Shown: one piece after another, positions 2,740 to 17,039 of the stretch
How positions within the stretch are numbered: the stretch's first letter is position 1
How the letters are laid out: every line of letters starts with the position of its first letter
Assembly (NCBI RefSeq): GCF_008520305.1
Contig: NZ_ML703258.1
Span: forward strand, 62,001-126,000
Origin: Mesorhizobium sp. SARCC-RB16n
GTDB lineage: Bacteria; Pseudomonadota; Alphaproteobacteria; Rhizobiales; Rhizobiaceae
Length of the DNA: 64,000 bases
Reading direction: 5' to 3'
Translations under genes and position numbers: made by a program
The notes under the pieces: model-generated
Database searches by the model: none
What the model saw: only the letters and a program-made list of their open reading frames with translations
What the model was told of the DNA's origin: nothing

Positions 2740-4827
2740 ATGAAACGCGAGATAGGCCCCAATCAGATGAAGATCGATACTCTTCCGGCGCGTGCGTCGC
2801 TGGCCGCCGGGCAAATTGTTCTGGGCAACATCGACTATGACGAGCGCGCCACTATGCGCGCCTGGGAAGATTTTCTGGCTGACGAACCCAAATGTGCCCG
2901 TGACCCAGTCCACCCAAGCCACGTCCGCTCCCTCATTCACGATTCCTGGTATCGCAGCGTCACCGGCGGCATCAACGCCCAGGGGATTGAAGCGCCGCTG
3001 AGCAGTGATCGCGATGAGATCGAATATCTGACCCGGGCCAATGCGGAACTGCTTTCGGCGGCTCGGCGGTCGTTCGCCTCCCTTGGCCAGTTGTTGCAAG
3101 GGACAGGCGCGATGCTGGTGCTTGCCGACAGTGACGGCGTGCTGATCGACGCCATCGGCGACAAGAAGACCCTGCACGACGGCATGGATATCCATCTGGG
3201 CATCGGCGGCAAATGGAACGAGGACGCCGTCGGCACCAACGGCATCGGCACGGCGCTGTGGACCGGTGAGCCGACTTTCGTCCACGCGGCAGAGCATTTC
3301 TGCGCCGGCATCAAATCCTGGACCTGCGCTGGCGCGCCGATCCGCGACCCGCTCGACGGCAAGATCATCGGGGTCGTCGACCTCTCAGGCTATTCGCCGA
3401 TCTTCCGGCCGCACAACACCGCGCTCGTCGCCGCTACCGCCCGGCAGATCGAAAAGGCATTGGCCGAACAGCAGCAGGAGCAGCGCACGCGCCTGCTCGA
3501 AGCCTTCATTTCCTCGGCTCCCAGCTACCGCCGGAAGGACGGGCTGGTGATCGTCGATCACCGTGGCCGGGCGATCTTCTGCAACAATGTGCCCAACGGC
3601 GACACGACGGATATGATGGACGGCCCGATGGAACCGGGCCGCGGTCGTTGGCTCATGAACCTGCCGGCGTCCGGCTCCGACGCCGATCTCGCCAAGGCGC
3701 TGCCGGCGCATCTGCGATCCTGCCACGTTACGCCGCTGAAGCTCGACGGCGACCTTCGCGGCGCAGCTCTGGTGTTCCCCTCCGTGCCGATCGTCTCCAG
3801 CGCGATGACAATAAGCCGAGAGGTGAACAAGCACCTGCAGACAGCCGCGGAGATGATCGTCGGTGAAAGCGAGAAGCTGCTCGCCGCCGTCGATGTGGCC
3901 TCCCGCGTGGCGCGGTCGAACGGCGTCACGTCACTGCTCATAGAGGGTGAAACCGGCGTTGGAAAAGAGCTGTTCGCGCGGCTTGTCCATGCCGGCAGCC
4001 GGCGCACCGAAAACGATCCGTTCGTCGCAATCAATTGTGGGGCGATAACCAAGGAATTGTTTGGCAGCGAATTGTTCGGCCATGTGGCCGGAGCCTTCAC
4101 CGGAGCCTCGCGTGAGGGCAAGCCGGGCGTCTTCGAAATGGCCAATGGCGGAGTGCTCAGTCTAGACGAAATCGGCGAGTTGCCGCTGGAGATTCAGCCA
4201 TTCCTATTGCGCGTCCTGGAAGAGCGTGTGGTCCACCGCATCGGCGACTCAAGGGGCCGGCCGGTGGACGTGCGACTGGTTGCCTCGACCAACCGCGACC
4301 TCAAGCAGGAAGTGGCGGCCGGACGCTTCCGTAGTGACCTCTACTACCGCATCGGCGCCGTCTCGATTCAAGTCCCGGCCTTGCGTGAGCGCGGCGACGA
4401 CGTGCTGTTGCTGATCGAGCATTTCAATCGCCGGATCGCTGCGCTGGCAGGCAATGATCCCCTGGAATTTTCAAACGACGCATTGGACGCGCTGCTCGCC
4501 TATCGATGGCCGGGCAATGTGCGCGAACTGAAGAACCTAGTGGAGCGCCTGCACATCCTGGCGCGCGGCAGCTCTATCGAGCTCCAGGACCTTCCCGAGG
4601 AGATCAATGCGGGCAATCGCAACGACATCGCCATGCACAGCGATCATCCCGCAGCCATGCTCGAAGCACCAGTGTACACTTTCGAGGATGCGGAACGCCA
4701 GGCGATCAAGAACGCGCTGGCGGCAGAGAGCGGCAATCTCAGCAAGGTCGCCGTCAGGCTCGGTATCTCGCGACCGACGCTCTATCGCAAGCTCGGCCAA
4801 TACGGCATTCGGCGGGGCTTTCTCTAG
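2740..4827 (+). CDS. prmR: Sigma-54-dependent activator of the AcoR family, probable regulator of the propane monooxygenase operon
   Basis: A 695-residue bacterial enhancer-binding protein. A GAF-type sensor region spans about residues 98-242, a PAS-like segment follows (KDGLVIVDHRGRAIFCNN near 267), then the AAA+ domain from about 370 to 595 with Walker A GETGVGKE (403-410), the sigma-54 contact loop GAFTGA (451-456) and Walker B GGVLSLDE (470-477), and a Fis-type helix-turn-helix at the end (NLSKVAVRLGISRPTLYRKL). The order is that of AcoR/MimR regulators found with propane and aromatic monooxygenases. It converges on the operon's last gene. A consensus sigma-54 promoter in front of prmA is the evident target. 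Effector unknown, presumably propane, propanol, acetone or phenol. An alternative start is ATG 2767. Confidence 0.9.
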   Translation: MKREIGPNQMKIDTLPARASLAAGQIVLGNIDYDERATMRAWEDFLADEPKCARDPVHPSHVRSLIHDSWYRSVTGGINAQGIEAPLSSDRDEIEYLTRANAELLSAARRSFASLGQLLQGTGAMLVLADSDGVLIDAIGDKKTLHDGMDIHLGIGGKWNEDAVGTNGIGTALWTGEPTFVHAAEHFCAGIKSWTCAGAPIRDPLDGKIIGVVDLSGYSPIFRPHNTALVAATARQIEKALAEQQQEQRTRLLEAFISSAPSYRRKDGLVIVDHRGRAIFCNNVPNGDTTDMMDGPMEPGRGRWLMNLPASGSDADLAKALPAHLRSCHVTPLKLDGDLRGAALVFPSVPIVSSAMTISREVNKHLQTAAEMIVGESEKLLAAVDVASRVARSNGVTSLLIEGETGVGKELFARLVHAGSRRTENDPFVAINCGAITKELFGSELFGHVAGAFTGASREGKPGVFEMANGGVLSLDEIGELPLEIQPFLLRVLEERVVHRIGDSRGRPVDVRLVASTNRDLKQEVAAGRFRSDLYYRIGAVSIQVPALRERGDDVLLLIEHFNRRIAALAGNDPLEFSNDALDALLAYRWPGNVRELKNLVERLHILARGSSIELQDLPEEINAGNRNDIAMHSDHPAAMLEAPVYTFEDAERQAIKNALAAESGNLSKVAVRLGISRPTLYRKLGQYGIRRGFL

Positions 4828-6432: not shown

Positions 6433-8064
6433 TCAGGCGCGGCCGAGCTTTTCAGAGCCGCCGCCGCGAGCTGGGCCGGCTGTCGGGTCCTCGTCCTCGG
6501 CGAGATGGCCGATCAGCGTTTCGGTGGTCAGGATCAGCGTCGCCACCGAAGCTGCGTTGGCGAGTGCTGTGTAGGTGACGCGCACCGGATCGATGATCCC
6601 CGCCTCGAACATGTTCTGGTAGCTGCCGGCAGACGCGTTGTAGCCGTAGCCGCCGTTGATGCGCGTGACTTCCGCCACGACCGCTTCGGGATCGGCACCG
6701 GCATTGACGGCTATGCGCCAGAGCGGCCGCGACAGCACCGACCGCACCAGGCGCACGCCTTCGGCGACGTCGCCGCCGACATCGGCCGCCACCTTGTCGA
6801 GCAGCGGTGCGATCTGGGCAAGCGCCGAGCCGCCGCCGGCGACCACGCCCTCCTCGGACGCGGCGCGCACCGCATTGAGCGAATCCTCGATGAGCTGAAT
6901 GGTTCGCTTCTGCTCGACCGGCGTGACACCGCCGGCATAAAGGATCGCGGTGCCGCCAGAGAGCTTGGCCAGACGTTCGCGCAGCTTGTCCTGGTCGATG
7001 TTCGGCGGCGAGGCTTCATACTGCCGCTGCACCTGGGCGCGGCGCGATGCGATTGCGGCATGGTCGCCGCCGCCCCGAATAATCGAGGTGTAGGACGAAC
7101 TGGTCTTCACCCGATCAGCCGTTCCGAGATCGTCGGCGGTGATGTCCTCCAACCGACCGCCGAGGTCGCGAGCGATCACCTTGCCCCCGGTGATGATGGC
7201 CAGGTCCTCCATCATCGCCTTGCGCCAATGGCCGTATTCCGGCGGATGGACAACGAGGTATTTTCCAGGCCCCTGCTTGCCGAGCAGTGTCACCACCACT
7301 TCCGGCGACATTTCCTCGGACACGATCAGCAGCGGTCGACCGTCCTCGTCGGCAATGCGGCGCGCCGCATCGAGCGCCTCGGGTTCCTTGATCTTGAGAT
7401 CGGTCATCAGGATGTAGGGGCGCTCGAGAACAGCCTCCATCTTCTCCGGGTCGGTCACCATGTGGTGAGAGAGATAGCCGCGTTCGAAGGACATGCCCTC
7501 GACAACGTCTAGCGTGGTCTCGGTGGTGACGCTGAAGTCGGTGGTGATGACGCCTTCGGCTCCGACGCGCTGATGGGCTTCCGCCACCAGTGCGCCAAGC
7601 TTGGTGTTGGTCGCCGCGATGTTAGCGACCGAAGCCAGGATGCCGTTGCCCTTTGCCGGCTTGGCCGAAGCCTTGAGGGCGGCCACCACCGCGGCCACCG
7701 CAAGATCGATGCCCTTGCACAGATCGACCGATTTGGCGCCTCGCTCATTCGCCTCGATGCCACCCTGGATGAGCGCGTTGGCGAGCACGATGGCAGTCGT
7801 GGTCCCGTCGCCGGCGACCTCGTTGGTCTGCATCGACACTTCGCGGACGACCTGCGCACCCATGTTTTCGAAACGATCGTGCAGCTCGATCTCGGAGGCA
7901 ATGCTGACGCCGTCGCGGGTCACCATCGGCGTGCCGATCGGCCGGTCGATCATGGCGTTCATGCCTTTGGGGCCGAGCGTCGGCTCGACGGCGGCTGCAA
8001 GCCGAAAGACGCCACGGGCGAGAGCCCGGCGGGCCTCGGAATTGTGAAGCATTATCTTGGGCAT
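6433..8064 (-). CDS. groEL: Operon-encoded GroEL-type chaperonin
   Basis: A 543-residue group I chaperonin subunit. It has the ATP-binding motif AGDGTTTAIVLANAL, TLGPKGMNAMIDRP and EEGVVAGGGSAL, so it should hydrolyse ATP. It is a divergent paralogue: the end reads AGPARGGGSEKLGRA and lacks the GGM repeats of housekeeping GroEL, and no groES stands beside it. Dedicated GroEL paralogues (MimG) in propane monooxygenase clusters are known to be required for folding the hydroxylase large subunit, which fits its place here between the DUF59 protein and the dehydrogenase. AAGGAGGAAT precedes ATG 8064. Confidence 0.93.
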   Translation of the reverse strand: MPKIMLHNSEARRALARGVFRLAAAVEPTLGPKGMNAMIDRPIGTPMVTRDGVSIASEIELHDRFENMGAQVVREVSMQTNEVAGDGTTTAIVLANALIQGGIEANERGAKSVDLCKGIDLAVAAVVAALKASAKPAKGNGILASVANIAATNTKLGALVAEAHQRVGAEGVITTDFSVTTETTLDVVEGMSFERGYLSHHMVTDPEKMEAVLERPYILMTDLKIKEPEALDAARRIADEDGRPLLIVSEEMSPEVVVTLLGKQGPGKYLVVHPPEYGHWRKAMMEDLAIITGGKVIARDLGGRLEDITADDLGTADRVKTSSSYTSIIRGGGDHAAIASRRAQVQRQYEASPPNIDQDKLRERLAKLSGGTAILYAGGVTPVEQKRTIQLIEDSLNAVRAASEEGVVAGGGSALAQIAPLLDKVAADVGGDVAEGVRLVRSVLSRPLWRIAVNAGADPEAVVAEVTRINGGYGYNASAGSYQNMFEAGIIDPVRVTYTALANAASVATLILTTETLIGHLAEDEDPTAGPARGGGSEKLGRA

Positions 8065-8141: not shown

Positions 8142-8939
8142 TCAGGCGGCCGGTGCGGTCCCGGCCGGCACGCGATCCATGATGAAATCGACCAGCGTCG
8201 GTTCGCCGTCGATCACATCCAGTTCCTTGTATCGGGTCTGCTTGAGCCCCCGGCATAGCGCGCCGTTGAACTCCATGTTGATGCGCACACCGCGCAGCTC
8301 GGCGAGGTGGGCATTGAGTGCGCTCGGCGGGATTTTCTGCCCTTCCCAGGTCACGAACACAGGGGCGTCGGCCCGGCGGTCGGGAAAACGCTCGAGCAGA
8401 GCCGCCCGGTACCGCGGCTGCTGTTTGGCCGCCTCGCCCGGTTCGAACCGCGCGACGTCGTATGCCGGCAGGTCCATCCCGATGATTTCGCGATCGGTCA
8501 GACCGTGCTGCCGCAAGCCGCGCAAGACTGCCTCCTGGCGCCGCTTGAATGCCTTCATCCTGAAGGTCTCACGCAAAGCGCCAAGATCCTGATCCTCGGC
8601 AAGCACGGCAAAGATGTCGCCGAAGGTCTTGCCTTCGGCCATGCCGCGATTGACCTCTTCCGCGAACATGTGATCATGCAGCTTGACGCGATAGGCGGGC
8701 GCCCAGGAAAGCTGGTCGAGCGCCTTGCGGACGCCGTCTAGCATCAGGAACGCAAAGTTGGGTGAGCACCAATAGGTCGGCAGGCGGAAATCTATCTCCA
8801 CGCTGCCATCGCTCGTCACCTCGGCCCGCTCGACGAAGCCCATCTCGGTAATCGGTTCGTCGAGCTCGGGGTCGTTGACCTCGCCAAGGCGCCGCCAGAG
8901 TTCCTTCTCGCGGCTGCTGGAAACGCTGGCGGTTGCCAT
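8142..8939 (-). CDS. DUF59/MIP18-type iron-sulfur assembly protein
   Basis: A 265-residue protein. Its first 110 residues carry a DUF59 (PaaD/SufT-like) domain: EVNDPELDEPITEMGFVE, the IDFRLPTYWCSPNFAFLML strand with the conserved Cys, then a helix. The remaining 150 residues have no domain I recognise. DUF59 proteins help load metal clusters; here it probably assists the reductase's 2Fe-2S centre or the di-iron hydroxylase. The frame remains open to 9326 inside the amidohydrolase, but the ATG at 8939, five bases after the amidohydrolase stop, gives the family N-terminus. Such a gene is a regular partner in propane monooxygenase operons. Confidence 0.8.
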   Translation of the reverse strand: MATASVSSSREKELWRRLGEVNDPELDEPITEMGFVERAEVTSDGSVEIDFRLPTYWCSPNFAFLMLDGVRKALDQLSWAPAYRVKLHDHMFAEEVNRGMAEGKTFGDIFAVLAEDQDLGALRETFRMKAFKRRQEAVLRGLRQHGLTDREIIGMDLPAYDVARFEPGEAAKQQPRYRAALLERFPDRRADAPVFVTWEGQKIPPSALNAHLAELRGVRINMEFNGALCRGLKQTRYKELDVIDGEPTLVDFIMDRVPAGTAPAA

Positions 8940-8944
8940 GGCCC

Positions 8945-9967
8945 CTACTCCGCCGCGATGCTGAAGTGCGAACTGGCGAGCGCCTTCTTCTTGGCTTCGA
9001 TGTCGATGTTGTAGAGGCGCGCGGCGTTGAGGCCGAGGATCTTCTCCTTGATCTCGTCGGTCAGCTGCACACCGCGTTCCGCGGCGATGTCGTCCGGGAT
9101 CTGATAGGCCCAGAATTTCTCGACCAGCCAGCGCGGCGTCCAGATCGCGTAGTCCGAACCGAACAGGATCTTCTCCGGGCCGAGCCAGAACAGCAGTTCG
9201 GCGATCACCTCGCCGAAATAGCGGGGGCGCGCGTGGATGAAGGGCAGCGCCACGGCCAGGCCGCCGTAGACATTGGTTTCCTGCGTCGCGATCCAGCAGA
9301 AATCGTCGAGGCGCGGCAGGCCGCAATGCTCGATGATCCAGTTGAGGCCCTGGAAATCCGTCGCTGCGTGATCGACGTCATGGACGTCGAACGCATCCTT
9401 CGAGAGCGGCAGGATGGTTGGACCCTTGTGTACGTGGATGTTCCTGATGCCGAGCTTGTCGCAGAGTTCGAAGCATTTGTAGGCATCGGGATCGGTGAGC
9501 TTCCAGCCCTTGGAAGCGCCGTTCCACTCGGCCGTGTACATCTTCACGCCCTTGACGTTGTAGGTCTCCTTGAGGAAGTGGATGTACTCAAGTGCCTTCT
9601 CGCCATCGCGCGGATCGAAGGCGCCGTTGACGATGAAACGCTCCGGATAGCGCTTGGCCACCTCGGCGTTGCGCTCGATCGTGTTGAAGCCGTTCTTGTA
9701 GAAGTCCTTGAGATAGGTCGACTGGACGATCGCCACATCGTCGGGACCGTCGATGAACAGGTCGCGATAGAGGTCGTCGGCACTGTATTTCTCGAACTTC
9801 GACTTCTCCCACAGCTGCTCCTTGGGGCTCAGCCCGGTATGATAGGCATAGAAGCACTCGATGAACTGCTTGCCGTGGATGTTCTTCTGGTTCTCGGGGC
9901 TGCCGTCCCAGAAATGGGTGTGGCCGTCGACCACGAAAATATCCTTGCCTTCCGGTGTCCTAAACAT
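8945..9967 (-). CDS. Amidohydrolase-2 family protein of the monooxygenase operon
   Basis: A 340-residue TIM-barrel metal hydrolase or decarboxylase. Metal ligands are visible: DGHTHFW near the start (HxH), IHVHKGP and IIEHCGLPRLDD in the middle, and GSDYAIWTP near the end, where the Asp is catalytic. The family includes uronate isomerase-like and aminocarboxymuconate decarboxylase-like enzymes. Homologues sit at this position in other propane monooxygenase clusters, where their role is not settled; a part in assembly or in acetone/hydroxyacetone handling is guesswork. GGAGGGAAG precedes ATG 9967. The next gene starts five bases after its stop, so the two are translated together. Confidence 0.85.
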   Translation of the reverse strand: MFRTPEGKDIFVVDGHTHFWDGSPENQKNIHGKQFIECFYAYHTGLSPKEQLWEKSKFEKYSADDLYRDLFIDGPDDVAIVQSTYLKDFYKNGFNTIERNAEVAKRYPERFIVNGAFDPRDGEKALEYIHFLKETYNVKGVKMYTAEWNGASKGWKLTDPDAYKCFELCDKLGIRNIHVHKGPTILPLSKDAFDVHDVDHAATDFQGLNWIIEHCGLPRLDDFCWIATQETNVYGGLAVALPFIHARPRYFGEVIAELLFWLGPEKILFGSDYAIWTPRWLVEKFWAYQIPDDIAAERGVQLTDEIKEKILGLNAARLYNIDIEAKKKALASSHFSIAAE

Positions 9968-10039: not shown

Positions 10040-10411
10040 CTATTCGATGTATTCGAACATCTCATCCATGTTGCCGAATAGGATCACGGTGTTGTCGTCG
10101 ACGCGAACCATGCGGCCATAGTGGGTGGAGGTGTTGACCTCGAAGGTCTCGGCCGAAATCTCGCGGCCGAGATACTCGCCGATCGCGTCCATCTTGAAGA
10201 TCAGCTTGCCGTCACCGTCGATACGGATCAGCGCCGGTTGGTAGGTGATCGTCACCCCAGGCTTCTTGCCCATGAATTCGGCGATGGCCCTGGCTTCGAC
10301 GGAGTCGTTCATGGTGACGCCGCACTGGTGCGAAATCGTCTGTTCGAAGGTGATGTCCTTCATCTCCTTGAAGATGTTGGAATGCGTTGCGTCGCGTGCT
10401 GCTAGTGACAT
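10040..10411 (-). CDS. prmD: Propane monooxygenase coupling (effector) protein
   Basis: A 123-residue protein of the MmoB/DmpM effector family, cofactor-free, which binds the hydroxylase and tunes oxygen activation. Seen: VGVTMNDS-like segment (CGVTMNDSVEARAIAEFMG), ITYQPALIRIDGDGKLIFKM and the terminal acidic NMDEMFEYIE. Length fits. The start at ATG 10411 is preceded by AAGGGGAAATTG. It lies 17 bases after the small hydroxylase subunit, in the fixed A-B-C-D order of group-5 soluble di-iron monooxygenases. Confidence 0.9.
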   Translation of the reverse strand: MSLAARDATHSNIFKEMKDITFEQTISHQCGVTMNDSVEARAIAEFMGKKPGVTITYQPALIRIDGDGKLIFKMDAIGEYLGREISAETFEVNTSTHYGRMVRVDDNTVILFGNMDEMFEYIE

Positions 10412-10428: not shown

Positions 10429-11487
10429 TCAGCGCTTGAGGCCGAGTTCGCCGAGGATCTGGCCAATCCGTTCCTCGGATTTGGCGCGAACGTCGGCGAA
10501 CGCGACTGGCTTGGAATGCGGCATAGACCAGATCGGCTGCAGGCCGATGGCTGCCTTGTCGGCGAGCGCGCCGTGCTTCTTGACCCAGCCCTGGAAGAGC
10601 TTCTTGTTTGCCGCGCCGTGTTTCTCGTCGTTGGCGAGCAAGTGCATGAGGTCGATCGTGTTGGCGAGGTTGCGCTCGTAGTCGGCCTCGGCTGCCGAGA
10701 TCACCGCAGGCGTGATGAAGTCGTGGTTGGCGGCGGCGATCTGCATGAGGAAGCCGGAGCGGAACACTTCCCCGACCAGCGGTTCGAAGACGATGTTGAT
10801 GGCGAAGTACTGTTCGAGATAGTCGGTCGCGCCCATGATGGTCTCGACCGCTTCGCGGGTGCCTTGCCAGTTCTTGTCCTCGAGCCAGGTCTTCTTGCCG
10901 AGTTCGTCGTCCCAGCCGGGCAAGTCCATGCCGATCTCGGCAAGGTAGAGCGTGATGTCCTGAGCAAGCCGCAGCTTGTACGATGAATTGGTCAGCGTCG
11001 CGTTGTTGATCATTTGGGTATAGCCGTAACGCTGCGCCTGCATCAGCGAGGTGCCGAGCCCGAATTCGGCATGCTTCCAGGCGCCGAGCTGGGCCTGAAG
11101 GATCTTGACCCAAGCCTTGTCGAAGGTCTTCGGTGCACCGGACTTGCGCGCATTGTTAATGACGCTCTGCACCATCGTCTCGATCCTCGACTGGCGCTGG
11201 TAGTGCGTGCGCTCCCATTCCTGATCGGGAGCGCGGAAGGCATGCCAGTTGGAGCTCTGCGCGGCAGTGTTCTGCTTGACATAGGCGCCCTTGCCGTCGG
11301 CGAAGGAGATGATCCAGTCCTGGATAAGGTAACGCTCGGGATCGGGCTGCACGTCGACCGTCATATCCTCATAGTGGGTGGCACGCTGGCCTTTCGGCTC
11401 GAAATACCGGTACTTGCGGCTGTCGGAGTCGGCGAAGAGCGCCGCGCCGGCGGCTCCGGATCCGACTGAACTCGAGGTTGCAGGCAT
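10429..11487 (-). CDS. prmC: Propane monooxygenase hydroxylase small (beta) subunit
   Basis: A 352-residue ferritin-like subunit that lacks the di-iron EXXH pairs and supports the large subunit. Typical blocks are KYRYFEPKGQRATHYEDMTV near the start, SSNWHAFRAPDQEWERTHYQ, and the helical core ending QPIWSMPHSKP. The start ATG 11487 has GGGAGAG ahead of it; an in-frame extension to 11556 adds Gln/Arg-rich sequence unlike the family. It forms the hydroxylase with prmA; reductase and coupling protein genes flank it. Confidence 0.9.
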   Translation of the reverse strand: MPATSSSVGSGAAGAALFADSDSRKYRYFEPKGQRATHYEDMTVDVQPDPERYLIQDWIISFADGKGAYVKQNTAAQSSNWHAFRAPDQEWERTHYQRQSRIETMVQSVINNARKSGAPKTFDKAWVKILQAQLGAWKHAEFGLGTSLMQAQRYGYTQMINNATLTNSSYKLRLAQDITLYLAEIGMDLPGWDDELGKKTWLEDKNWQGTREAVETIMGATDYLEQYFAINIVFEPLVGEVFRSGFLMQIAAANHDFITPAVISAAEADYERNLANTIDLMHLLANDEKHGAANKKLFQGWVKKHGALADKAAIGLQPIWSMPHSKPVAFADVRAKSEERIGQILGELGLKR

Positions 11488-11536: not shown

Positions 11537-12598
11537 TCAATGGGCCGGCGCTGCACCTGCCGATGTGGTGAACTTGTCGAAGAAGATCCGCTCCGTCTCG
11601 AACCCGTTCATGAACAGGACCGGCTGCAGCGCATCGATCATCGGCGGTGGGCCACAGGCATGGATATCGCCCTGCCCGTCGACCGCCAGTTGCTTGAGTT
11701 TTGCGTCGACACTCTGGTGCACGAAGCCACGCTCGCCTTGCCATTCGGCGTCGTCGTTCGCGTGCGACAGCACGGGAATGAAGGTGACGTCGGAATGATT
11801 GCCGACCAGCTCGGCGATCCTGTCGAGATAGAACAGATCGTTGCGGGTGCGGGCGCCGTAGAAGAAATAGACCGGACGTTTCTCGCCGCTCTTCAGGTGG
11901 TCGTTGAGGATCGACCAGATCGGCGACATGCCCGAGCCGGCGCCGACCAGGATCAGGGGTCCTTGCCGTTTTTCCCGACGGAAACAGGTGCCATAGGGTC
12001 CGACGACGGTGACCTCGGCTCCGACCTTGATGCCTCCGGAATCGAGTTCCCCGGAGAATTTTCCCTCAGGGTATTTTTTGATGATGAAGCAGAGTTTTTC
12101 GGTTTGGTCCGGCGTATTTGCCATGGAGAACGAGCGCGTAATCGTCTCCCCTTTTTGCGTGGTAACCGTGATGTCGACATATTGCCCCGCCCAGAACTTT
12201 ATCGGGGAGCCGAGTTCGATCTCGATGCCGCGAATGTCGTGGGTCAAATGCTCGATCCGAGCAATCCGGCCCTTGAACGTCTTTACGGCGATGGCTTTCG
12301 CCAAAATCTCCTCGTCGTAGTTGAGAAGCTCGACTTCCAGATCGGAGTAGGCGATGCAGCGGCACAAAAGGACGTGGCCGCTCTCCTTCTCCATGTCGTT
12401 CAGTGCGAAGGTTGAGTATTTCAGCATGTCGACTTCGCCATCGAGCAACACGCTTTTGCAGGCCGAGCATTGCCCTTCCTTGCAGCCATGCGGCAGGGCG
12501 ATGCCTTGGCGGAAGGCGGCGTTGAGCACCGTTTCGCCATGCTCGACGTCAAATTCGACGCCGACCGGACTGAGCCTGACCGTGTGGGTTTCCGACAT
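11537..12598 (-). CDS. prmB: Propane monooxygenase reductase (2Fe-2S/FAD)
   Basis: A 353-residue oxidoreductase that passes electrons from NAD(P)H to the hydroxylase. The N-terminal 100 residues are a plant-type ferredoxin with CKEGQCSACKS and a fourth Cys in LLCRCIAY. An FAD-binding domain (RSFSMANTP) and an NAD-binding domain (LVGAGSGMSPIWSIL, then HACGPPPMIDAL) follow. Length and order fit the MmoC/DmpP class. Start ATG 12598 follows TGGAGGTCCGT. A stem-loop lies directly upstream, between it and prmA. Confidence 0.93.
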   Translation of the reverse strand: MSETHTVRLSPVGVEFDVEHGETVLNAAFRQGIALPHGCKEGQCSACKSVLLDGEVDMLKYSTFALNDMEKESGHVLLCRCIAYSDLEVELLNYDEEILAKAIAVKTFKGRIARIEHLTHDIRGIEIELGSPIKFWAGQYVDITVTTQKGETITRSFSMANTPDQTEKLCFIIKKYPEGKFSGELDSGGIKVGAEVTVVGPYGTCFRREKRQGPLILVGAGSGMSPIWSILNDHLKSGEKRPVYFFYGARTRNDLFYLDRIAELVGNHSDVTFIPVLSHANDDAEWQGERGFVHQSVDAKLKQLAVDGQGDIHACGPPPMIDALQPVLFMNGFETERIFFDKFTTSAGAAPAH

Positions 12599-12650: not shown

Positions 12651-14318
12651 TCAGTTGCAGGGATTGATCGTGAAGCCCGCGCGATACTCGGCGAGGTGCT
12701 TTTCACGGTCCTGCGGCGACATCGCACGCAGCGCCATCAGCGGCGAGCGGATGACGTTGCCGCGCACATCGTCCAGCGTCCACATCGACTTGTCGTCGAA
12801 GCGCAGATGTGGCTGCGGGATCAGGGTCTTGCCGTCGGATCGCACGAAATTCAGGTCGACGATCGCGTCGGCCAGATCCCAACCGTCATAGAGCGACTCC
12901 CACTCGCGCTTGCCGCTGAAGCGGCCCATCGCAGGTGTCGGGCGACCCTGATATTCGTCGGCAAAGGCTTCGACCGCGGTCCAGCGGTCGATCTCGTGGG
13001 CGAAAGTGTGCAACTGGCCGTCGATCTCGTCGACCACGATATCCTCGCGGATCAGACAGGGGACCAGGCAAGACCAGCAACGATGCGGATAGACATATCC
13101 GGTTTCCGCGTTGAAGGTGATGATCTGCTGACCCGGATGGCTGAGCTTCCCATGCCATTTCCAGAAATCACCAAATTCTGCATACCAGCCCGGATACTTG
13201 TGCTCGAACCACTCGAAGTCCTTGTCGGTCTGGGCCTCGATGCGCCAGAAATTCAACGGCCAGCCGTCAGTGAAGAACTGCGCGACCTTGTGGACGTAGT
13301 TCTTCTTGGTGATGCGTTCCCAGGCCGCCTGGACGTCGTCGTGATGGACCTTGATGCCGTATTTCTCGAGCGGCAGCATGTAGGTGCGGTAGTAGTCCTC
13401 ATAGATCCAGCGGTGCCACATTTCCGCGTAAGACTCCTTGTTCTTGTCGCGGTTGGTGGTGCCGTATTCGATGAAGGTGCCGATGGCGGCATCGACGATC
13501 GCGTGGTTCTGCCAGAAGGCGTAGCGCAGGTCGCGCTCGAGCAGCAGGTGGTTTTCCGGTTCCTTGAGCGCCGCCATCAGCAGGGAGTGGCCGTTGCCGA
13601 TATGCCGGCTCTCGTCCGATTGCACCGATAGGAAGACGGTCGGAAGCGCATAGTCACCGTTGCGGGCGGCTTCCGAAGGCATGGCGACGAACAGGGTGTT
13701 GGTGAAAGCGGTTTCGGCCACCACGGTCAGGTACATGCAGGCGGCGGTCATGGTGTCGCCGGTGATGAAGCCTTCGGCGAACTGCCGGCCGATGGTGGTG
13801 GCGTAGCACTTTCCGAAGGCTTCTTCGGTGATGTCGAAGCCGGCCGGATCGATGTAGTTCTCCATGTACCATTTCTTCAGGTTCATCTGGATCGTCGAGT
13901 GACGGAACTCGTCGATCATCTGCATGGTGAAGCCGGTTCTGAGTTCCTCGCCGGGCGCGATGCGGGCGACCATCGCCATCGAGCGCGCGGCGGAGATTTC
14001 CGGGAAGGGAATGATGGCCAGGAAGAGTTTCATCCACTCGACCCAGCGAGGTTCCACATTGCGGAACATGTCGCCGCGCAACGCTGCATCCAGCGCGCCA
14101 TAGACACGGTTGTCCTTCTCTTCCTGCATTGGGAAATAGGACCGCAGGACCTGCTTCATCGGGTCGCGCGGCGTCTTGTTGATCTTGTAGTCGGTCGGAA
14201 ACGTCATCGCTTCCTGGACGTAGGAAGGATTCCAGCCGAGGTCGGCGATCTTCTTGGTTGCTTCGCCCACGGAGATTCCGCGTTGCGAGGTGATCTTGTT
14301 GAGCGTCAGAGACGTCAT
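12651..14318 (-). CDS. prmA: Propane monooxygenase hydroxylase large (alpha) subunit
   Basis: A 555-residue catalytic subunit of a group-5 soluble di-iron monooxygenase. Di-iron ligands are visible as two E-x-x-H motifs, MIDEFRHSTIQMNLKK and SVQSDESRHIGNG, within the four-helix core. The blocks YFPMQEEKDNRVYGA, GRQFAEGFITGD and PHRCWSCLVPCLIRED are those of MimA/PrmA. The protein oxidises propane (often also acetone or phenol) with O2, using electrons from prmB. GGAGG gives a nine-base spacing to ATG 14318; ATG 14324 is possible but only three bases away. First gene of an eight-gene operon, transcribed from the sigma-54 promoter about 300 bases upstream. Confidence 0.95.
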   Translation of the reverse strand: MTSLTLNKITSQRGISVGEATKKIADLGWNPSYVQEAMTFPTDYKINKTPRDPMKQVLRSYFPMQEEKDNRVYGALDAALRGDMFRNVEPRWVEWMKLFLAIIPFPEISAARSMAMVARIAPGEELRTGFTMQMIDEFRHSTIQMNLKKWYMENYIDPAGFDITEEAFGKCYATTIGRQFAEGFITGDTMTAACMYLTVVAETAFTNTLFVAMPSEAARNGDYALPTVFLSVQSDESRHIGNGHSLLMAALKEPENHLLLERDLRYAFWQNHAIVDAAIGTFIEYGTTNRDKNKESYAEMWHRWIYEDYYRTYMLPLEKYGIKVHHDDVQAAWERITKKNYVHKVAQFFTDGWPLNFWRIEAQTDKDFEWFEHKYPGWYAEFGDFWKWHGKLSHPGQQIITFNAETGYVYPHRCWSCLVPCLIREDIVVDEIDGQLHTFAHEIDRWTAVEAFADEYQGRPTPAMGRFSGKREWESLYDGWDLADAIVDLNFVRSDGKTLIPQPHLRFDDKSMWTLDDVRGNVIRSPLMALRAMSPQDREKHLAEYRAGFTINPCN

Positions 14319-14620
14319 CGTCATAAGCCTCCACCAGGTTTGAGCCGCGGGTCCCTTGACCCCGGCATGAAGCGGCGCACGGCACCGCCAGTGAGAGTGC
14401 GAACGGCACGACAAAGGGTTGCGCATTCAGGCGCGACTCATGGTCCGGCCATTCAAGTGGATCGCGGCAAAGGTTTTCGAGGTGTCTGGCAGGGGGCCGC
14501 GGACGCCAACCGCATTTTGCGATGGCGTATCGAAGCGGATGTCCCTGTCCCTGCTTCCTCCGGTCCTTCGTTCTTTTGGCACCGCGTCAAGCGCGATGGG
14601 CTTCTTATGCAAATAGGTAA

Positions 14621-14636
14621 AGCAATCGCCGTGCCA
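14621..14636 (-). promoter_or_regulatory. Sigma-54 (-24/-12) promoter of the propane monooxygenase operon
   Basis: Read on the minus strand the site is TGGCACGGCGATTGCT, an exact match to the consensus TGGCACG-N4-TTGCW. Transcription would start near 14610 and run towards prmA, leaving a leader of about 290 bases. An activator with a GAFTGA loop is encoded at the operon's far end, which supports the assignment. Confidence 0.85.
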
Positions 14637-14710: not shown

Positions 14711-14750
14711 TGTAACGATATTTTACACATGTATATTACGACTGTAACAT
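14711..14750. promoter_or_regulatory. Upstream activator sites (TGTAAC repeats)
   Basis: TGTAACGATATTTTACA at 14711-14727 is an inverted repeat TGTAA-N7-TTACA. A second TGTAAC starts at 14744, about three helical turns away, preceded by TTACG so that TTAC-N4-GTAA is again symmetric. They lie 75-110 bases upstream of the -24 element, where enhancer-binding proteins normally bind. They could also serve the divergent gene cluster. Confidence 0.5.
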
Positions 14751-14883: not shown

Positions 14884-15363
14884 ATGATGCCAAACGACAA
14901 AGACAGCCGGGGCCCAGCCCCGCCAATCTCCAACCAGGCCGACGGGGTGACCGGAGATCTGGTCAGGTTGATGCCGCGCGACCTGGTTTTCGTCATGCGT
15001 TTCATGGGCGAAAGCCAGTACCGGCTGCAAAGCCATTTCCAGGACTTCATCCGGGCCGAGCTTGCTGCCGGTGGCGTCACCCCGCAAACCCATCCGATGA
15101 TCCATCTGTTCATCGAGAGCCATGCGATCCTGCTACGCGACTTCGTGTTTTCCGGCGTTTCGCTGACGCGCCAGTTCCGCGTCGATGAGATCGAGCGCCT
15201 CACCGGCGACACCACATCGATGATCCGCGTCGACATTTGGGATCAACTCAAGAGCCACATCGAAACGGCCGAGAAGCAGTTCCAATCGCAGGCTGACACT
15301 CTGCCTAAGCTGCTTTCGGCTTTCGAAAACCCGACCGGGCCGGCAGCCGGGAAGGACAAATGA
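14884..15363 (+). CDS. Unknown helical protein, first of four genes divergent from prmA
   Basis: About 159 residues, no family recognised. After a polar, proline-rich start the sequence is helical: DLVFVMRFMGESQYRLQSHF, FIRAELAAGG, MIHLFIESHAILLRDFVFSG, and a charged C-terminal helix with IETAEKQFQSQADTLPKLLS. No signal peptide or membrane segment. The start is uncertain: ATG 14884 or 14887 follows AGAGAAAG, while an in-frame ATG at 14827 would add IILYYLEAGV. It overlaps the next gene by four bases (ATGA), so the cluster is translationally coupled. It shares its control region with the propane monooxygenase operon. Confidence 0.7.
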   Translation: MMPNDKDSRGPAPPISNQADGVTGDLVRLMPRDLVFVMRFMGESQYRLQSHFQDFIRAELAAGGVTPQTHPMIHLFIESHAILLRDFVFSGVSLTRQFRVDEIERLTGDTTSMIRVDIWDQLKSHIETAEKQFQSQADTLPKLLSAFENPTGPAAGKDK

Positions 15364-15692
15364 TGGCGGGTTCGGTGAACAGGCAAGCCACTACGCGAGA
15401 GGCGCTGCTCAAGCGCCGGCTGGCTCTTGTCGGAAACGTCTCGGCGCTCACCGCCGAGGCATTGCGGCTCAATCAGAAACTCGCTGGTCTCGAGATGGAT
15501 CTGCTGCGCGTGGAGCTGGAGATCGGCAGGAGCGGCGCCAGCGCGCAACTGGTGCAGGATTTGCATGAAGCGGAAGAGAGCGCCGAGGCGATCATGAACG
15601 CGCGCGCGGCGTGCGAGAATCGCATCGCCACTGCCGAAGGCCAGATCGCGGATGTCGATCGCGAGCTTGCAGCGACAGAGAACGAAGACTGA
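15360..15692 (+). CDS. Small coiled-coil protein
   Basis: A 110-residue protein, almost all predicted helix with heptad-like spacing of leucines and many Ala, Glu and Arg: LALVGNVSALTAEALRLNQK, LDLLRVELEIGR-like and a second helix ADVDRELAATENED near the end. This suggests a two-helix coiled coil that binds a partner. No family recognised. Its start overlaps the preceding stop by four bases and its stop is 14 bases before the propeller gene, so it belongs to the same transcript. Confidence 0.7.
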   Translation: MMAGSVNRQATTREALLKRRLALVGNVSALTAEALRLNQKLAGLEMDLLRVELEIGRSGASAQLVQDLHEAEESAEAIMNARAACENRIATAEGQIADVDRELAATENED

Positions 15693-15706
15693 TGGGAGAG
15701 ACACAA

Positions 15707-16834
15707 ATGAACCAGCAGACAATGCAAAACCTGACCCTGTTCGACCTGCTGGCACGCAGCTGGCGTCGACCGTCGGGGGTCGCTGATCTGTGCTTCAGCG
15801 CCGATGGTTCGACCGTTGCTTTCACATCCGTGGACGGAACCGTCGCCATAGCCGCGGTTGCTGACCGGGAACCGCCGGAGTCGCGCATCAGGGTAAGCGG
15901 CGATCTCGGCCAGACGACCATCCGCCCGCGCGAGACACCGCCGGTGCCGTTGATCGCCTCCGCGGCATTTGGCGAAGGCGATGCCCCCCTCGCCACCTAT
16001 CTGGATTCCAGCTTTCTCATCGGAACGGCGGCCGGCAAAGCAGTGCATCTGACGGCTGACGGCGAAGCTACGGAGATGCCGATCAAGATCGAAGGGCCCA
16101 TCGTCGCCATCGATCATAGTGCCCGGACAGCCCTGACGGCGGTCAGCGACGGGCGCGATGTCTTCCTGTCCGGCGATCTCGGCGATGTGACGAAACTGGA
16201 ACGCGGTGCAACATCGTCGACGGACGCGCTGGCCTTCTCCCCCGGTGGACGCCGCCTCGCCTGCGGCTTGGGCAATGGGCTGTCGATCTGGGCGGTCGAA
16301 GGGCCTGCCAGCCTGATACGAGACTTTGCCTTTCCGGCGCGCCCGACATCGATCCGTTGGAGCGGCGATGGCACATGGCTGGCCAGCGGGCTCGAAACGG
16401 GCGGCTTTGCCCTGATCAACATCGCCGATGGTCTTAGCGGCGTCATCGCGGGATTTCCCTCCCCGGTCCGTACAGTGTGCTGGAGCCAGTCGGCGAACGC
16501 GCTGCTTGCCTCGGGTGCGTTCCGGATTGCCGGTTGGTCGATGACCGCGCCGCCGCTTGATGGCGAGAACGCCGGAGCCCTGGAAACCGGTCGCGCTGGT
16601 CTCGTTCTTGTCGAGACGGTGGCGGCGCATCCTCAGAAGAAACTTGTCGCGGCGGGTTACGCCAACGGCCGGATCACTGTCGCCCAGATCGGCGGACGCG
16701 ACGAGCTTCTCGTCAGGCCCTTGGGCAGTGGGGTAACCGCGCTTGCCTGGTCCGGCGACGGACGGCACCTGGCTGCGGGTATGGCCGACGGCACCGCTGC
16801 GATCATCACCTTTCCAGCGCAGATGTTCAAATAG
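15707..16834 (+). CDS. WD40-like beta-propeller protein
   Basis: A 375-residue protein made of repeated four-strand units. Repeats can be followed by phrases such as GVADLCFSADGSTVAFTSVD, DALAFSPGGRRLACGLGNG, SIRWSGDGTWLASGLETG, TVCWSQSANALLASGA and ALAWSGDGRHLAAGMADGTA. This spacing (about 40-50 residues) fits a seven-bladed propeller, usually a protein-interaction platform. No signal peptide, so cytoplasmic. ATG 15707 has GGGAGAG six bases upstream; an ATG at 15692 is inside that ribosome site. Together with its coiled-coil neighbours it looks like a structural scaffold rather than an enzyme. Confidence 0.8.
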   Translation: MNQQTMQNLTLFDLLARSWRRPSGVADLCFSADGSTVAFTSVDGTVAIAAVADREPPESRIRVSGDLGQTTIRPRETPPVPLIASAAFGEGDAPLATYLDSSFLIGTAAGKAVHLTADGEATEMPIKIEGPIVAIDHSARTALTAVSDGRDVFLSGDLGDVTKLERGATSSTDALAFSPGGRRLACGLGNGLSIWAVEGPASLIRDFAFPARPTSIRWSGDGTWLASGLETGGFALINIADGLSGVIAGFPSPVRTVCWSQSANALLASGAFRIAGWSMTAPPLDGENAGALETGRAGLVLVETVAAHPQKKLVAAGYANGRITVAQIGGRDELLVRPLGSGVTALAWSGDGRHLAAGMADGTAAIITFPAQMFK

Positions 16835-16865
16835 CGGGGCAATCCGCGCGAAATAGGAGGATAGA

Positions 16866-17039
16866 ATGCAGACTGAAATCACCACAGAGGAAGAGAGCAA
16901 GGACGCCTTCTTCGAACAACTCGCCAAATTGTCGGAAGAGATGGTCGCCAAGCACGGTAAGGATTTCAGCATGGGCGCGCTGGTGCTCGCTGCACGCTGG
17001 ATCGCCGAAAACCGGATTGGTCAATTGAAGACGAACTAG
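16866..17039 (+). CDS. 57-residue protein, last of the divergent cluster
   Basis: Reading from ATG 16866, with TAGGAGGATAG just ahead, the protein starts MQTEITTEEESKDAFFEQLA, continues LSEEMVAKHGKDFSMGALVL and ends AARWIAENRIGQLKTN. It is acidic at the front, amphipathic in the middle and has no signal or membrane segment. The strong ribosome site, spacing of 31 bases from the propeller gene and sensible codon use argue that it is real. Function unknown; small helical adaptor is the most one can say. Confidence 0.65.
   Translation: MQTEITTEEESKDAFFEQLAKLSEEMVAKHGKDFSMGALVLAARWIAENRIGQLKTN

Follow-up and report, generated by a model that had tools for sequence, protein, structure and literature searches.

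A four-gene module with a predicted WD40 propeller accompanies the propane monooxygenase genes of Mesorhizobium and related bacteria

The way in which soluble di-iron monooxygenases acquire their iron and fold is a gap that hinders their use in common hosts. Among their accessory proteins, DmpK of phenol hydroxylase is presumably comparable to the genes described here, being linked to the hydroxylase and suspected of a role in assembly, and to our knowledge no propeller is known among the accessory factors of di-iron monooxygenases. The folding and maturation of the soluble methane monooxygenase (sMMO) are called unfamiliar in the available portion of Zill et al. (2022, PMC9324122), which adds that its extra genes have no known function. 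The actinobacterial MimABCD/MimG and PrmABCD/GroEL systems combine the hydroxylase type considered here with a GroEL-like helper, and the chaperonin-like protein is required in the Mim/Prm-type enzyme, to judge by the title of Furuya et al. (2013) as cited in PMC8394569. On the side of metal chaperones, Haas et al. (2009, PMC2770081) describe a clustering of WD40 genes and znuABC with COG0523 subfamily 5, and the accessible part of the same article has the COG0523 activator of the iron-type nitrile hydratase as dispensable once GroESL is co-expressed. In the open-access literature we found no paper linking a propane or di-iron monooxygenase with a WD40 or beta-propeller module, which is weak evidence since most subscription journals lie outside it. 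Here we describe four genes, ORF1 to ORF4, in a stretch of 64,000 nucleotides from Mesorhizobium sp. SARCC-RB16n (contig NZ_ML703258.1, hereafter the window), which we rate as accessory genes, unusual in their make-up, of a soluble di-iron monooxygenase.

Gene content and control region of the locus

ORF1-4 (14884-17039) are divergent from prmA and the genes for the reductase, small subunit, coupling protein, amidohydrolase, DUF59 protein and GroEL-like protein (Table 1). The four genes, the ATGA overlap and the gaps between them have the coordinates and spacing given in the first-pass annotation. The closest locus found belongs to M. sp. WSM4306, with 96% identity in the propeller protein. 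Against seven relatives, dN/dS lies far under 1 for each of ORF1-4 and is lowest for ORF4; these are real genes under purifying selection. An antisense ORF of 499 amino acids was rejected as a gene, being open in just 2 of 11 sequences, as were membrane or secreted products of ORF1-4, in which hydrophobic segments are absent (maximum mean hydropathy over 19 residues, 1.39). Across all four products, the sole Pfam match above cut-off is that of ORF3 to the WD40 families; no family, the phenol hydroxylase accessory subunits included, reached it for ORF1 (13 copies) or ORF4 (16 copies). Profile searches of PDB sequences matched nothing for ORF1 and gave a single meaningless match (E 1.7) for ORF4, and the structure prediction of ORF1 has a pLDDT of 54.

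Table 1. Genes and elements of the locus (positions in the window)
Feature	Position	Strand	Remark
ORF1, 159 aa, family unassigned, probably helical	14884..15363	+	least constant member of the module
ORF2, 110 aa, predicted two-helix coiled coil	15360..15692	+	evolves fastest among ORF1-4
ORF3, 375-aa WD40 beta-propeller	15707..16834	+	eight blades in the model; sister of COG0523-GTPase WD40 partners
ORF4, 57 aa, constant prmA companion	16866..17039	+	12 residues invariant across 16 diverse copies
Predicted sigma-54 promoter of the prmA operon, TGGCAC-N5-TTGC	14621..14636	-	consensus match
TGTAA/TTACA block between both operons	14711..14749	.	25-sequence alignment
prmA, hydroxylase large subunit	12651..14324	-	Pfam Phenol_Hydrox 4.9e-62
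prm reductase	11537..12598, start approximate	-	annotation of relatives
prm hydroxylase small subunit	10429..11487, start approximate	-	annotation of relatives
Coupling protein, MmoB/DmpM-type	10040..10411, start approximate	-	annotation of relatives
Amidohydrolase-family protein	8945..9967	-	Amidohydro_2 4.8e-50
DUF59 / FeS_assembly_P protein	8142..8939	-	3.1e-8
GroEL-like chaperonin, prm cluster	6433..8064	-	Cpn60_TCP1 2.1e-63
Sigma-54-dependent activator gene	2740..4827	+	annotation of relatives

Scored against what we take to be the sigma-54 consensus, the site facing prmA agrees at 12 of 12 positions, is the best in the window, and is retained with 11 or 12 matching positions by all 45 loci compared. 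No site of at least 9/12 faces ORF1 in any of these 45 loci, and a strong sigma-54 promoter running the module in the window is therefore rejected. The control region that the first-pass annotation had assigned jointly to ORF1-4 and prmA thus carries a predicted sigma-54 site in the one direction and none in the other. Elsewhere, weaker sigma-54-like sites (10/12) lie upstream of ORF4 in genome G154 and upstream of the Caballeronia gene set, which has a stronger one (11/12) between ORF4 and prmA; sites of at least 9/12 are missing from genome G169, and from the sequence immediately 5' of ORF1 in Bradyrhizobium, G052 and G089. The TGTAA/TTACA block may be a binding site of the sigma-54 activator. 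A gene for a ribbon-helix-helix regulator recurs by the prm genes or the module (L046, 13462-13755; L047, 13330-13611; L052, 13768-14088; L056, 20633-20986). Four distant clusters also have an opposite-strand gene of about 90 amino acids just upstream of ORF2 (L047, 11358-11621; L048, 11343-11618; L050, 11358-11633; L051, 11289-11564), for which there is no space between ORF1 and ORF2 in the window.

Association of the module with prmA

The main co-occurrence sample comprised 347 genomes of the order, centred on G001, and was searched with PrmA and an ORF4 profile. Each gene was found in 21 genomes and both in 20, so that ORF4 is present in 20/21 prmA genomes and prmA in 20/21 ORF4 genomes, and the link to the monooxygenase, first drawn from position, holds in this sample. 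The hypergeometric P of 2.9e-30 for the overlap is overstated, given that the genomes are related and that G001 was picked as a holder of the module. In the sole prmA-only genome (G194) the contig stops just past ORF1, and the sole ORF4-only genome (G216) carries a remnant interrupted by four stop codons, the 6 kb examined there containing no prm gene. Of the 20 genomes having both, 18 have the propeller gene next to ORF4; in G154 and G169 ORF4 stands without a propeller, immediately upstream of prmA on the same strand. A sample of the phylum (398 genomes) had prmA in four, all of them also in the order sample, and strong ORF4 matches in five, the fifth being G647, where a broken prmA and propeller pieces lie alongside; two more ORF4 matches (E 0.001-0.003) look like chance. 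The decayed prm region of G647 (L114, 7594-10462) has its prmA and propeller fragments adjoining an ORF4-like frame. A chance neighbourhood of ORF1-4 and prm is rejected on the co-occurrence in the 347- and 398-genome samples. In a sample of the class (240 genomes), prmA was found in two, G001 again and G725, and neither ORF4 nor the propeller was found in the latter.

Searching the genome collection with ORF3 gave 45 distinct loci at 45-96% identity, all from close relatives, mainly Mesorhizobium, and thus not independent of each other; all 45 have prmA adjacent on the opposite strand and the full ORF1-4 set. One of them (L003, 1-7105) has a shortened prmA without its C-terminal end beside ORF1-4, and the other prm genes are absent within the stretch examined. 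ORF4 is thus encoded with hydroxylase genes in nearly all its holders, and ORF3 likewise in 45/45 loci. Homologues common away from any di-iron monooxygenase, against which the first-pass annotation had proposed to check, were not found for ORF4 in the 347 genomes, and prmA is also present in 10 of the 12 plasmid records matching ORF3 over 80% of its length.

Among plasmid records, ORF4 occurs in 13, prmA with an identity of at least 75% in 17 (the Shinella copy being partial) and both in 11; all ten records with prmA above 80% identity carry ORF4. The six prmA records without ORF4 are from Azospirillum (four) and Methylocella (two), and one of each, rechecked with the ORF4 and ORF3 profiles, gave no match. 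Plasmids of Phyllobacterium and Rhizobium CB3171 have ORF3 and ORF4 without a prmA match, the search covering the plasmid records. On a Skermanella mucosa plasmid ORF4 lies downstream of GroEL, and the propeller was not found on that plasmid. Caballeronia, a betaproteobacterium, has an alcohol dehydrogenase gene, an ORF2-like gene, the propeller, ORF4 and prmABCD on one strand; the sigma-54 activator gene immediately precedes the module in Bradyrhizobium, G052 and G089; in G154 ORF4 comes first, with about 60 bases between it and prmA. In G183, Ponticoccus, Paracoccus and Caballeronia the surroundings of the module yielded no ORF1. The arrangement of the module varies, yet its company with prm is retained, and ORF4 is its constant part, occurring with prm genes but without the propeller in G154, G169 and Skermanella. 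In Shinella pShin-04 (L047, 6991-10430) prmA is truncated beside an IS21 element and ORF1-4 persist. An rpoN gene lies near the module in three Rhodobacterales plasmids, of Gemmobacter, Ponticoccus and Paracoccus (L048, L050, L051), which suggests a dedicated sigma-54.

The module is not universally required for this hydroxylase type. With PrmA proteins 76-79% identical, Azospirillum B510, Methylocella tundrae and G725 carry prmABCD together with the GroEL gene and lack all four of ORF1-4; since they lack ORF4 and the propeller, the hydroxylase can apparently form without the module. A Rhodococcus plasmid (PrmA 63% identical) also has neither ORF4 nor the propeller, in a single actinobacterial locus whose prm set seems incomplete. 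In a tree of PrmA, 32 of 33 propeller holders and G194 form one branch with support 97/100, Caballeronia falling outside; the 41 rows were chosen and labelled by hand out of more loci, and the placement of the long rows is unsure. Several C-terminal cysteines are gone from PrmA in the propeller-holding rows examined, Caballeronia excepted, a YTYCSE.CRW type having become an HTFAHELDRW type, and are retained in Caballeronia, G154 and G169. Their disappearance from these sequences could possibly mean that a metal site was lost.

The propeller and its relatives

The AlphaFold model of ORF3 has a mean pLDDT of 86, and in Foldseek it matches WD40 propellers, of which eight-bladed ones rank first with nearly the whole chain covered. 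ORF3 is accordingly modelled as an eight-bladed WD40 propeller, which replaces the earlier estimate of about seven blades; the likeness in fold says nothing on function. A protein downstream of GroEL in G154, a weak match, was rejected as ORF3, since it is a distinct propeller that looks exported.

When six ORF3-holding genomes were searched with an ORF3 profile, five had one second-tier protein (146-165 bits), and all further WD40 matches scored 20-28 bits. All five second-tier proteins are encoded beside a CobW-type GTPase. The distant plasmid relatives of ORF3 comprise 11 records, of which seven were examined (L130 and L137 being near-copies), and six of these have an adjacent GTPase (L130, L131, L133, L135, L136 and L137, with L134 the exception); in both GTPases tested, Pfam identifies cobW plus CobW_C. 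A CobW GTPase thus adjoins 11 of 12 second-tier or distant relatives (5 genomic and 7 plasmid loci), and none of the seven third-tier WD40 loci (six distinct places, about 1.5 kb on each side). In the reverse test, a profile of the COG0523 partners gave 72-235 bits for 15 ORF3 copies, the Caballeronia copy scoring 235, and 33-60 bits for four third-tier frames, so the gap is narrower (60 against 72 for the lowest ORF3 copy). The separation of ORF3 from other WD40 proteins is nevertheless real, though narrower by this reverse profile.

These comparisons make ORF3, at the level of sequence, a sister of the WD40 proteins that partner the COG0523 metal-chaperone GTPases. A CobW-like GTPase is absent from the window and from every prm locus examined and, because the adjacent GTPase is missing, we do not class ORF3 as a member of the partner family itself. 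In Gemmobacter aquarius the WD40 gene of the COG0523-partner type is followed by two small genes without an assigned family (L136, 3804-4402), neither of which matches the profiles of ORF1, ORF2 or ORF4.

Hydroxylase maturation and its alternatives

We propose that ORF1-4 are a dedicated accessory module for PrmABCD, most likely serving hydroxylase maturation (metal loading and/or assembly) together with the GroEL-like protein, and we put the probability of this reading at about 0.5. Three observations favour maturation over a substrate sensor: the module is tied to prmA, ORF4 persists where the propeller is missing, and ORF3 is kin to partners of metal chaperones. It is on this presumed ancestry of ORF3 that a metal role would rest. 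Since ORF4 evolves most slowly of the four and is retained in the absence of the propeller, it may bind the hydroxylase or a folding intermediate, and ORF3, with the coiled-coil ORF2 and ORF1, could act as an adaptor through which ORF4, iron or the chaperonin is brought to the apo-hydroxylase. A more specific version, which we hold only tentatively, would be a cytosolic iron-insertion machine in which a propeller derived from a COG0523 system, a coiled coil and a 57-residue hydroxylase binder load or fold PrmA; ORF4 would be the older part, and the propeller module a later addition that spread with the enzyme, often on plasmids.

The alternative that survives best, unlikely as we consider it, is a structural scaffold or metabolon holding hydroxylase, reductase, coupling protein or downstream dehydrogenases together with no role in maturation. 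WD40 propellers and coiled coils serve in protein interactions generally, none of the four products has membrane segments and the module travels with the enzyme, all of which would suit a scaffold; however, intact-looking relatives do without the module, the ancestry of ORF3 indicates a metal-chaperone partner, and the module is independent of the DUF59 and amidohydrolase proteins. This independence is seen in G077, where the module is complete and the GroEL gene is kept, both of the other genes being missing, so that a holder for DUF59 or the amidohydrolase alone is rejected. A scaffold for assembly factors, as first suggested for this locus, therefore loses DUF59 as its necessary client, and gains from the partnership of ORF3's sister family with metal-chaperone GTPases.

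We doubt a little more that the propeller and its partners form a regulatory complex, which would sense substrate, product or the state of the hydroxylase and hold or release the sigma-54 activator of prm. The closeness of sigma-54 genes to the module, namely the activator gene directly upstream in Bradyrhizobium, G052 and G089 and rpoN beside it in Gemmobacter, Ponticoccus and Paracoccus, fits regulation equally, as does the control region common to the module and prmA in Mesorhizobium, with the TGTAA/TTACA block kept between them. Against this, Azospirillum and Methylocella have the activator gene without the module, the prm operon of G154 apparently begins with ORF4, which thus takes the place of a structural or assembly gene, and the family that is sister to ORF3 goes with metal chaperones; for substrate sensing, raised in the first-pass annotation, we found no positive evidence.

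Least probable is that ORF4 and its partners replace or modify a missing GroES of the prm GroEL-like protein: no GroES is listed in the annotated prm stretches with a GroEL-like gene (the gene tables being incomplete), propeller-positive clusters, including that of G077 which lacks both DUF59 and the amidohydrolase, retain the GroEL gene, apart from the broken Shinella and L003 clusters, and the available portion of Zill et al. (2022, PMC9324122) raises the same question for sMMO MmoG and the helical MmoE, but GroEL-like genes also occur in prm clusters without ORF4, and ORF4 has no Pfam match above cut-off.

A four-gene set that tracks one such enzyme and has a metal-chaperone-related member offers concrete candidates for co-expression, and ORF4 provides a small marker of this propane monooxygenase clade.

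Compared with described systems, the module finds its parallels in the unexplained MmoG, MmoD and MmoE of sMMO, which, in the part of PMC9324122 available, are like it small or chaperonin-like (MmoG being GroEL-like), linked to the hydroxylase and suspected of roles in assembly. It differs from the actinobacterial systems in that the single Rhodococcus plasmid locus examined has neither ORF4 nor a propeller. AztD, as described in the accessible text of PMC6689063, is an eight-bladed propeller that hands zinc to another protein and is often encoded near CobW genes; unlike ORF3 it is periplasmic or on the cell surface and has known zinc sites, and its likeness to ORF3 is one of fold type alone. 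The WD40 partners of COG0523 subfamily 5 are homologous to ORF3, which is nearer to them than to any other WD40 protein encoded in those genomes. In the alignment ORF3 is longer than these partners toward the N-terminus, where it may carry an extra blade, and it sits with prm and without an adjacent GTPase, whereas theirs is the company of metal-uptake genes.
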